A DNA stretch of 64,000 bases, from contig NZ_BDUB01000001.1 of NCBI RefSeq assembly GCF_002218065.1, positions 4,807,118 through 4,871,117 of the forward strand, given 5' to 3'. Position 1 is the stretch's first letter. Each line of letters starts with the position of its first letter. Both the position numbers and the translations under genes were made by a program. Source of the stretch: Nodularia sp. NIES-3585 (GTDB taxonomy: Bacteria > Cyanobacteriota > Cyanobacteriia > Cyanobacteriales > Nostocaceae). The notes beneath the pieces were generated by a model, which made no database searches, was not told where the DNA came from, and saw only the letters and a program-made list of their open reading frames with translations. Positions 10,733-14,967 of this stretch are shown one piece after another.

Positions 10733-10806
10733 GGACGTATAGCTCAGTTGGTTAGAGCGCTACGTTGACATCGTAGAGGTCCCCCGTTCGAGTCGGGGTA
10801 CGTCCA
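10733..10806 (+). tRNA. tRNA-Val (GAC)
   Basis: A complete cloverleaf. The acceptor stem GGACGTA (10733-10739) pairs with TACGTCC (10799-10805), followed by discriminator A. The anticodon stem CTACG/CGTAG holds the loop TTGACAT, giving anticodon GAC. The T arm has GTTCGAGTC. The CCA is not encoded. Eight bases downstream lies a transposon-end-like sequence. Confidence 0.97.
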
Positions 10807-10814
10807 TTTTAAAT

Positions 10815-10830
10815 TGTACAGTGACAAATT
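10815..10830 (+). mobile_element. Terminal sequence resembling type V-K CAST transposon ends
   Basis: TGTACAGTGACAAATT starts 8 bases after the tRNA. From memory this matches the terminal bases of the ShCAST/AcCAST family (Tn7-like, Cas12k-associated). It is followed by CTAATGTTATTG, close to their subterminal repeats (TTAATGTCATTG). These transposons insert beside tRNA genes about 60-66 bp from a GTN PAM. GTT at 10751-10753 and at 10747-10749 lie at 61 and 65 bp, and the protospacer would be the 3' half of the tRNA. No opposite end could be found before 15.4 kb, so the element is probably incomplete. Confidence 0.6.
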
Positions 10831-11100
10831 GCGGCTAATGTTATTGCCTATGCGATCGCCTGAACAACCTTTGCAACTGTCAGAGTTCGACCAGCAGGCG
10901 GCACTAGAGGCACTTTGTTAGGGACAAACTGTGATTCCTTTTTAGTGCGATCGCGTGCATCAACAATTCAGGGAGAATCTGAAAAATTATGCTAAATAAG
11001 TATTAATGCTATAATTCTGATATTAATTTCAATTTTTACATAGATATTTAGCCCAGGTAACAAGCATCTTATAATTGAATTTTTTAACCGAACACATTCC
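10831..11100. other. Short stretch between transposon end and methyltransferase
   Basis: A small plus-strand frame starting at the ATG at 10851 (MRSPEQPLQLSEFDQQAALE) is interrupted by stops after 23 codons but stays recognisably codon-like after them. It may be the relic of a gene of the decayed element. I could not identify it. No promoter was assigned for the methyltransferase that follows. Confidence 0.3.
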
Positions 11101-12483
11101 ATGATAAAGCCAGCTTGTAATCCAGGTTCCAGGGTTCGTTACAGAGCAAATATTAAATTATCTAAAGAACAAGATGAAGAGCTTAATAGTTCTTCATCTA
11201 TTGTGTCTGAAACTACTTCTTTACATGGTGCGCTTACAGCATCAAGGAATGATGTGCGTGTCGTGGAGCTTTTTGCTGGAGCAGGCGGAATGGGTATTGG
11301 ATTTCTAATGGCTGGTGAGCAAAAAAAAGGGTTTAGAATTATTAATTCTGCTGAAATTAACCCAATATATTTAAAAAGTCTTGAAACTAATTATAAATAT
11401 TTTTCTAATAACTCCAATAATCGCATTGAAGACTGTATTCCTTATGATTTTACCCCTATAGATTTAACTAAAAAACAGGATTGCCAACTTGTACATGAAG
11501 CTGTCAAAAAGGCAGATGGTGTAGATATTGTAATTGGTGGAACTCCCTGTCAAGGGTTTTCACAATCAAATAGAAGTAATTGGAATGCCAAGAACACTTA
11601 TAATCAACTCGTTGAATATTTTATTCAATGTTCTTTAGAACTAGCACCGAAAGCAATTCTTTTGGAAAATGTCCAAGGTATTTTATGGACACCTCGTTCT
11701 AATAAAAGCAAAAATCCAGCTAATTTGACGGTAATTGACTATATTGAAAGGAAGTTTACAGATGCTGGTTATGTCCTCTTTCCAGCAATTTTAGATGCAG
11801 CTTGGTATGGAGTCCCACAACACCGTAATAGATTTTTTTTATTAGCATTGCACAAAGATTTAGGCTATACAGTCGATCATTTTGGCGAATGGGGGGCATT
11901 TCCGTTACCTACACATGGAGCAATAGGGAGAAATAACTATGTAACAATCAAAGAGGCAATTGCTGATCTACCTATGGTAGAAAATGGTGAGAATCGAGTT
12001 ATTCAGGAATATAAGGAATCAACTTATGAAGAATTAAAAGCAAACCCATTTTTGCAGCAAATGCGCCAAATGGCAACTCCTAATATTATCGAAGGTCACA
12101 TTGTTTCACGACAAAAAGATTATGTAATTGAAAGATATAAAAATATTCCTGCTGGTGGAAACTGGAAGAATATTAGACATCTGATGACTAACTATTCTGA
12201 TATAGAGAATACTCACAGTAATATCTACAGACGTTTAAGGTGGGATGAACCTTCAATCACAATTGGTAATTACCGTAAAAGCATGATAATTCATCCAGAC
12301 CAAAATAGAGGATTATCTCTGCGAGAAGCTACTCGTCTACAGTCTCTTCCTGACTGGTTTACGTTCTGTGGCTCTACAGATAATTCTAAAAATACAGGCT
12401 TAATGCACAAACAACAGCAATTAGCTAATACCGTTAGTTTTCTTTTGACACTAGCAATAGCTAAACACATACTTAAACTCTAG
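11101..12483 (+). CDS. DNA (cytosine-5) methyltransferase
   Basis: A 460-residue C5-methyltransferase that transfers methyl from AdoMet to cytosine in a specific site. The conserved motifs are in order: I (VVELFAGAGGMGIGF), IV with the catalytic Cys (GGTPCQGFSQSNR), VI (ILLENVQGI), VIII (QHRNRFFLL) and IX/X (REATRLQSLPDWF ... QQQLANTVS). The target-recognition region lies between VIII and IX, around residues 260-390. Fifty bases downstream is the Z1-domain gene on the same strand, so the two probably form one defence operon. No separate restriction nuclease is visible. The pair lies between a CAST-like end and a tniQ relic, which suggests it is transposon cargo. Confidence 0.93.
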   Translation: MIKPACNPGSRVRYRANIKLSKEQDEELNSSSSIVSETTSLHGALTASRNDVRVVELFAGAGGMGIGFLMAGEQKKGFRIINSAEINPIYLKSLETNYKYFSNNSNNRIEDCIPYDFTPIDLTKKQDCQLVHEAVKKADGVDIVIGGTPCQGFSQSNRSNWNAKNTYNQLVEYFIQCSLELAPKAILLENVQGILWTPRSNKSKNPANLTVIDYIERKFTDAGYVLFPAILDAAWYGVPQHRNRFFLLALHKDLGYTVDHFGEWGAFPLPTHGAIGRNNYVTIKEAIADLPMVENGENRVIQEYKESTYEELKANPFLQQMRQMATPNIIEGHIVSRQKDYVIERYKNIPAGGNWKNIRHLMTNYSDIENTHSNIYRRLRWDEPSITIGNYRKSMIIHPDQNRGLSLREATRLQSLPDWFTFCGSTDNSKNTGLMHKQQQLANTVSFLLTLAIAKHILKL

Positions 12484-12533
12484 CTTTGATTTTTTACAAT
12501 TCTAACCCTAATAAATTGATGAGGTAATAAACT

Positions 12534-14570
12534 ATGGCACAGATAAACAATCTGCAAGGAGATAATATTACTAACCTTCGGGAGTATTTACATGATGAAG
12601 AAAATATTTCTTATGCTGATTTTGATACAATTCTTCACACCGCATCTGAAGTAATACAAGGATGTCAAGAACCTACAGAAAATGGCGCTGTGAAGGGATT
12701 GATTTATGGTCATATACAGAGTGGAAAAACTTCTGTTATCCTGACAACGATGGCTTTAGCAGCAGATAATGGCTTCAATAACTTTATAGTGATGACATCT
12801 GATTTAAATGATATTTATGAACAAACCCTTGAAAGAATCAAAGGAGCGTTAGATAGTTTTATAGTTTTTGGTAAGACAGAAATCAAACAAAATTCAATAA
12901 CTACTCCCTGTTTACCACTAGCCTTAGTTAGTTCTAAAAATCCGCGTAAATTAAGAGATGTTTTAAATATCGTTCAGCTATCTAACTGGCAAAACGAACC
13001 AGTCATTATTATTGATGATGAGGCAGATCAAGCTAGTTTAGACACTAATATTAATAATCAAAACAGACCTACAAGTGCAGTAAATCGAGCAATTGTTGAT
13101 TTAAGAAATTATCTTAATTCTCATACTTATCTGCAAACTACAGCTACTCCTCAATCACTACTATTACAAGATAGTCAAAGCCCTTTCAGACCAGATTTTG
13201 TTGTTGTCACTACACCAGGGACAGGTTACGTTGGTGGAAACTACTTTTTTGATAACAATAACTTTAGTGATTCTGATCATATTCGTCAAGTGCCTGATAT
13301 TGATCTTAATAGATTGAGAACTAGCAACCGCATTCCTGATACTCTTATACAGTCAATGTTAGTATTTTTCCTGGGTTCAGCAGTTTTGAGAATACAGGGA
13401 AATCAAAAAAAATATACCTATCTACTCCATACTAGTTTTAGACAGGCAGATCATCATTTAGCCGCAGTATTAGTTGATAATTTTAAGAATCAATTGACAA
13501 ACGAGCTTAGACAAAATACTAATAACCCAATAAATGGCGTGTCTTCTGGACTCATAACACAATTACAAAATGCCTACAATAATTTACAACAAACTTTCGG
13601 AAATATTCCAGCATTTAATGCAGTATTAACAGAAACAGCAAAACGCATTACCTCTACAGAAGTCATAGAAATTAACTCTGTTACAGGAGAAGGAATTAGA
13701 CCTTTAACACGAAAACATACCCTTTATATAGGTGGTACAAAACTAGGTCGTGGTGTCACTGTCAAGAATCTTCTAGTTACTTACTATGGTAGAGATGCTC
13801 AACAACCACAGATGGATACAGTTTTGCAACACGCAAGAATGTATGGATATCGTAGAAATGAATTACCCGCTATTCGTATTTACTTACCAATTCGTTTAGC
13901 GCAAAGATTTGTTGACATTCATGAGAGTGATAATTTAGTTAGAGAACAGTGCAGATTAACTCACTTACCTATTCAAGTTATTCCTTTAATGTCAAGAGGA
14001 ATTAGGGCAACTCGCCGTAATGTCTTAAATGAGAATACTGTGAATCTTATAACTTATCAAGGTGGAAGGCAGTATTTTCCTCAGTTACCAATATCAGATT
14101 CTAATATTTTGGGTAATCAAACGCAAGAACTTGATAATTTGCTGTCTATAGCCAAATATCCAGATATAAAGCGTTCATATACAGTAACAATTGATGACCT
14201 TTTAGAGATTCTCAATTTTCAGTACGGCACACCTGACGCAAGCGGTGCATGGAAAGATGATTTGATCAGGCAAGCCATTACTACTCTGGGAAATCAGCCA
14301 ATATACCAAAACACAGGTACGTTAGTGATTGTTAATTTAAATTCTAATCTCAAGAAAAGCGAGAGTAGAAACTATACTCAACTTGGCAGCGTTTTACCTG
14401 GTGATGCGGGAAGAATACCTTATGGAGTCGATCCCAGATATCCAGCGTTATTAATGACTCGATTAAGAGGTGACGTTGACCCTCAAGGTGGTTGGCATGG
14501 AGTCCCGTTCTGGGTTCCAGTTATCAGATTTCCAGATGGTAACTACGCATTCTCTGTCAATGAAAGCTGA
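12534..14570 (+). CDS. Z1-domain P-loop NTPase (restriction-associated)
   Basis: A 678-residue protein with a superfamily-2-like ATPase core: Walker A GHIQSGKTS near residues 61-69, Walker B IIIDDEADQAS, and a motif III-like TTATPQS. The Z1 signature follows (GGTKLGRGVTVKNL ... DTVLQHARMYGYR, around 400-445). Z1 domains occur beside DNA methyltransferases in putative restriction systems, often with a GHKL ATPase and a nuclease; that is family knowledge. Here only the methyltransferase partner is present, so either Z1 supplies the effector function or the nuclease has been lost. The start is supported by GAGG about 12 bases before the ATG. Confidence 0.88.
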   Translation: MAQINNLQGDNITNLREYLHDEENISYADFDTILHTASEVIQGCQEPTENGAVKGLIYGHIQSGKTSVILTTMALAADNGFNNFIVMTSDLNDIYEQTLERIKGALDSFIVFGKTEIKQNSITTPCLPLALVSSKNPRKLRDVLNIVQLSNWQNEPVIIIDDEADQASLDTNINNQNRPTSAVNRAIVDLRNYLNSHTYLQTTATPQSLLLQDSQSPFRPDFVVVTTPGTGYVGGNYFFDNNNFSDSDHIRQVPDIDLNRLRTSNRIPDTLIQSMLVFFLGSAVLRIQGNQKKYTYLLHTSFRQADHHLAAVLVDNFKNQLTNELRQNTNNPINGVSSGLITQLQNAYNNLQQTFGNIPAFNAVLTETAKRITSTEVIEINSVTGEGIRPLTRKHTLYIGGTKLGRGVTVKNLLVTYYGRDAQQPQMDTVLQHARMYGYRRNELPAIRIYLPIRLAQRFVDIHESDNLVREQCRLTHLPIQVIPLMSRGIRATRRNVLNENTVNLITYQGGRQYFPQLPISDSNILGNQTQELDNLLSIAKYPDIKRSYTVTIDDLLEILNFQYGTPDASGAWKDDLIRQAITTLGNQPIYQNTGTLVIVNLNSNLKKSESRNYTQLGSVLPGDAGRIPYGVDPRYPALLMTRLRGDVDPQGGWHGVPFWVPVIRFPDGNYAFSVNES

Positions 14571-14950
14571 GTTACCTGTCTTCGATTAGTCGATATGACT
14601 GGCTTTTGATAAAATACTATCTTCCCAAACGGAAACCTACAGCGATCGCACGTTCCATTGTCCCATAATGCCGGAATCTTAAACCTCGCATCACAATTGG
14701 GACACTTGGAAAACAAGCGCAAATGATGGCGATCGCATCCCCCCGTTTCCTTAAACTTTCTCCATAACAAGCACCACATAACCGCATAGGTTTATGCTGC
14801 ATACTCACTCCAGCAGGTGGCAGCATTTGCGCTAACCTTTGGGTATTGGCTTCTACCACCGATGCGAACTGCTGGCAGCAGCGCTGTACGCTATCGCTTC
14901 CAATTCTTGTTGACATTGTGAAGTAGGCGATCGCCAAAGGCTGGGCGTAA
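14543..14950 (-). pseudogene. tniQ: tniQ relic, frameshifted, of the type V-K CAST kind
   Basis: Two overlapping minus-strand frames join into one protein. The first reads FASVVEANTQRLAQMLPP, AGVSMQHKPMRLCGACYGE. About seven residues are then lost, and the second frame continues KETGGCDRHHLRLF, SKCPNCDARFKIPALW, CDRCRFPFGKI. From memory this follows the ShCAST TniQ almost residue for residue, including both pairs of zinc-binding cysteines. The N-terminal 60 or so residues are missing. TniQ couples target recognition to TnsC in Tn7-like transposition. The gene is not functional as it stands. Neither tnsB, tnsC nor cas12k is in the window. Confidence 0.82.
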
Positions 14951-14967
14951 CCCATCATATTTTACAC

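Follow-up and report, generated by a model that had tools for sequence, protein, structure and literature searches.

What is left of a transposon whose traces lie beside a tRNA gene, and has its cargo shared its fate? In a 64,000-nucleotide stretch of the cyanobacterium Nodularia sp. NIES-3585 (contig NZ_BDUB01000001.1, positions 4,807,118 to 4,871,117; hereafter the window, to which coordinates refer), a preliminary description had reported co-located signals of a type V-K CRISPR (clustered regularly interspaced short palindromic repeats)-associated transposon (CAST) next to tRNA-Val. The observation was confirmed, and the remnants of a left end, cvkR and tniQ support reading it as a relic: it is nearly certain that the insert derives from a type V-K CAST and is not a working one. 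The CAST guide and transposition machinery has been lost or broken, and two cargo genes of DNA-modification type keep intact reading frames. The relic is ordinary in kind but unusually well documented, and is of interest for what becomes of CASTs and of the genes they carry.

The target gene, tRNA-Val(gac) (10733–10806, + strand; ARAGORN), occupies the same locus in the four same-genus species searched, flanked upstream by an SDR (short-chain dehydrogenase/reductase) gene and downstream by tex, each time on a single contig. These species, the close relatives lacking the insert that the preliminary description had looked to, carry no transposon end directly 3′ of tRNA-Val; in G001 and G002 a kinase-like gene (named by eye) sits between tRNA-Val and tex. 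By blastn, homology between the window and these species ends within about 16 bases past tRNA-Val and returns at 14927 (G004), 14951 (G002), 14958 (G001) and 14966 (G003); what lies between these points is the insert. The right-hand deletion junction spans 14919–14966 (no strand assigned), a region that contains GCGATCGC.

At the tRNA side, the first 16 bp of a CAST left end remain (10815–10830, + strand), the deletion point being exact to within a few bases. They are followed by the 3′ part of cvkR, the MerR-type repressor that V-K CASTs carry divergently from cas12k (10831–10993, + strand; tblastn), which contains two in-frame stops, shows 74% amino-acid identity to cvkR of locus L149 (tblastn, E 1e-23) and 79.8% DNA identity to that of a nearly complete CAST in genome G246, and is oriented as expected relative to the left end and cargo. 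At the far side lies roughly the C-terminal two thirds of tniQ (14594–14918, − strand; tblastn and alignments), the part past 14874 being visible in alignments only, with no significant tblastn match. The frameshifted, ShCAST-like tniQ of the preliminary description thus held up: the copy matches the V-K type ShTniQ (E 3e-15) and G246 TniQ (69% amino-acid identity over 36 residues), and, compared with G246, a 25-nt deletion and an insertion of 26 nt disrupt its frame. A methyltransferase and a Z1 NTPase are indeed the open genes between end and tniQ, but they are not all that lies there, given the cvkR remnant.

Missing from the insert are cas12k, the CRISPR array, the anchor spacer, tnsB, tnsC and the right end; no right end was recognised in the window, where same-genus chromosomal homology restarts beside the tniQ remnant. 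The absence of tnsB, tnsC and cas12k reported earlier extends to the whole genome: there was no cas12k (39 of 80 genomes were positive in the same search), no tnsB by either of two queries (one of these searches was positive in 8 of 11 genomes) and no tnsC in a search without a positive control. A Pfam TniQ profile search also returned nothing, but it missed the known remnant and found none in control genomes. As an exact match, the left-end 16-mer is unique in the genome.

The minus-strand tniQ had been taken to imply a rearrangement or a second element. This implication fell away on comparison with loci L195 and L197, in which the order starting at the tRNA is array, cas12k, cvkR, cargo, tniQ, tnsC, tnsB, with cvkR and cargo directed away from the tRNA and tniQ-tnsC-tnsB towards it; passages of PMC9938897 give the same plan for V-K CASTs. 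The window keeps this canonical order with parts lost at both ends, and therefore no rearrangement is needed. Deletions at both sides would have joined the 16-bp left end straight to the 3′ end of cvkR and the tniQ remnant to the chromosome. The order fits cyanobacterial V-K CASTs of the ShCAST/AnCAST type with a tRNA attachment site; unlike in those, cvkR and tniQ are pseudogene pieces here, and the other machinery and the right end are gone.

The position of the left end is consistent with guided insertion. A GTT within tRNA-Val (10751–10753, + strand), the inferred protospacer-adjacent motif (PAM) of the homing guide, lies 61 bp from the end, as the preliminary description had proposed, and according to passages of PMC9938897 V-K left ends lie 46–82 nt from a GTN PAM. 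The same passages provided the anchor protospacer length of 17 nt, which would place the protospacer at 10754–10770 (+ strand), in agreement with anchor units in relatives. A spacer matching tRNA-Val, expected earlier from relatives, was found: the anchor spacers of G006, G177, G278 and G409 begin with the bases directly after this GTT, as does that of G237, with one mismatch in the repeat part. The pattern of GTTGAAAG (the repeat end) plus these bases, with at most two mismatches, occurred in 5 of 388 genomes of the order, and the reversed control gave 0. In G006, G237 and G278 the anchor unit lies 153–165 bp inside a left end directly 3′ of tRNA-Val; in G177 there is no tRNA within 1.5 kb of it. 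An anchor guide matching tRNA-Val would have directed a V-K CAST to insert 61 bp from the GTT PAM.

Between the remnants lie an open gene for a C5 cytosine DNA methyltransferase of 460 amino acids (11101–12483, + strand; PF00145, E 1e-43) and cargo gene 2 (12534–14570, + strand; PF10593, E 7e-34; PADLOC Helicase_II, E 1e-100). The G246 CAST (L186, 5747–16470), from another family of the order, carries the same pair in the same order and orientation (84% and 79% amino-acid identity, respectively), and the two elements align in a single DNA block at 81.4%. G246 is nearly complete, with one in-frame stop in tnsB, whereas the window retains remnants and intact cargo; with a dead element and a nearly complete relative sharing a cargo, CAST loss and survival can be compared base by base. 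Outside CASTs, the full pair was found in two genomes only. It differs from the CglI and NgoAVII restriction-modification systems (M, R and N proteins), in that no R-protein gene lies beside it in the window or the G246 cargo, and the three proteins were not found together. According to passages of PMC8649781, the defence genes that Tn7-like elements carry are most often of the restriction-modification kind.

Several observations weigh against this account. No right end remains and hence no 5-bp target duplication to compare, and the anchor pattern, at up to two mismatches, was not found in the window's own genome, so that none survives in this copy. The nearest complete relative, G246, has its insertion elsewhere than at tRNA-Val and keeps a tRNA-Val-like unit in degenerate form (15 mismatches in 47 positions; 22–24 at five other loci). 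Its array-end spacer has 14 matching bases, with a GTT PAM and a spacing of 63 bp to the end. The match lies in a gene whose Pfam domains are of Mg-chelatase type and which we take to be of the yifB/comM type; judged from these matches, this spacer would explain the G246 insertion better than the tRNA-Val-like unit. TCAAC flanks both ends of the element, which seems to have changed home while carrying the same cargo. Exact copies of the left-end 16-mer are also present at unrelated loci, most of them in genomes of Nostoc type, a circumstance named beforehand as telling against a CAST relic: in 31 of 96 occurrences AAATG[GAT][CT] follows, a simple sequence rule, CAST genes were present at 3 of 92 loci, and 4 of the 96 occurrences (wider collection) lie directly 3′ of a tRNA. 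Finally, the ratios of nonsynonymous to synonymous substitution rates of the two cargo genes, 0.13 and 0.20, span time in which both copies sat in living elements, and are no proof of selection after stranding.

The relic reading may be right while the cargo, too, is dying and has merely not yet been hit; this bears on the present state rather than the origin, and is a real if minority possibility. Against it, the cargo has no frame lesions in 3420 bp, compared with four in about 490 bp of flanking CAST remnants, and most of the mismatches fall on third codon positions (143 of 228 and 196 of 360). The locus offers a clean case for asking whether a host keeps transposon-delivered restriction-type genes after the transposon's death. 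It is improbable that a dead CAST fragment was recombined in from another strain, with no transposition in this lineage, since no observation requires recombination and the PAM spacing and the relatives' tRNA-Val anchors directly explain the block's position. That the TGTACA end is solitary (from a miniature inverted-repeat transposable element (MITE)-like or other Tn7-like element), the cvkR-cargo-tniQ block having arrived separately, is very hard to sustain despite the unrelated loci, because here the end lies at PAM spacing and its 16 bp run straight into the 3′ end of cvkR, whereas near-complete CASTs run left end, array, cas12k, then cvkR.

At unrelated loci (L026, 819–1019; L067, 5418–5714; L088, 4974–5265; and others), TGTACAGTGACAAATT ends were observed singly or as close inverted pairs. 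Possibly, these ends, mostly of Nostoc-type cyanobacteria, are MITEs mobilised by a Tn7-like transposase. Also among the occurrences fitting the AAATG[GAT][CT] rule are L033, which lies beside tnsB-tnsC-tniQ, and L096, which follows a tRNA.

Among the 388 genomes, TGTACAG was found 57–65 bp from the tRNA-Val PAM in 15 (allowed spacing about 55–72 bp), compared with about 0.45 expected by chance at an assumed 40% G+C and 0 in the reversed control; one of them, G025, diverges from the V-K end straight after TGTACAG and may be due to chance. Four sites came by other routes, G019 and G042 via cas12k fragments near the tRNA, G409 via the anchor pattern, and G029, so that these additions are not a random sample. 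The 19 sites were surveyed up to 18 kb downstream (tblastn, E ≤ 1e-4), a range beyond which the far end of a long element may lie; contig ends shortened this to 6.2 kb (G006), 4.3 kb (G409), 3.0 kb (G391) and 1.8 kb (G029). No site had tnsB or tnsC, tniQ was found in the window only, and 10 showed an end only. An anchor was present at three, plus an inverted one in G409. Fragments of cas12k were seen at four (G005, G037, G019, G042) and a long frame in G409 (residues 190–638 of ShCas12k, about 70% of the length; N-terminal part not found); passages of PMC9938897 mention degenerate cas12k genes. G006 parallels the window, with an end, anchor, cvkR scrap (E 2e-5) and open HsdR gene before the contig end. 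The 18 further sites provide a small fossil record of one CAST attachment site. Tentatively, tRNA-Val(gac) may be a recurrent landing site of cyanobacterial V-K CASTs at which deletion nearly always kills the element and leaves a left-end scar and sometimes intact restriction-type cargo. If so, CASTs would act as one-way delivery of restriction-type genes to the chromosome, the machinery being discarded, and the retained left end might even exclude new insertions. The survey covers tRNA-Val sites alone, and its counts do not show whether tRNA-Val is unusual among tRNAs.

The works on V-K tRNA homing by Saito 2021 and by Hsieh and Peters 2021 may already list tRNA-Val, and we claim no priority for it as a V-K site. 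According to passages of PMC11406308, the attachment sites of V-K elements are for the most part tRNA genes of various kinds. The type I-B2 CAST PmcCAST also targets a tRNA-Val gene in assays described in passages of PMC10293859, which report no V-K insertion at tRNA-Val; PmcCAST is protein-guided by TnsD, whereas the window remnants are of V-K type (cvkR, short TniQ). A literature search, with supplementary tables outside its scope, found nothing on vestigial V-K CASTs or cyanobacterial cas12k remnants with cargo.

Two further layouts were observed at the surveyed sites. In G409 (L166, 14950–18600), tRNA-Val is followed by a right-end-like terminus, cvkR, the long cas12k frame, an array and a tRNA-Val anchor, inverted relative to the other V-K elements seen. 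G278 (L165, 17960–18740) carries a mini-element beside tRNA-Val, consisting of a left end, anchor, CRISPR array, inverted left end and right-end-like terminus, in which no CAST genes were found. In a tRNA-Val gene that otherwise hardly varies at this locus, the T arm (10781–10802 in the window; L143–L156) differs: the genus has two paired versions, and three occur among the relatives compared.
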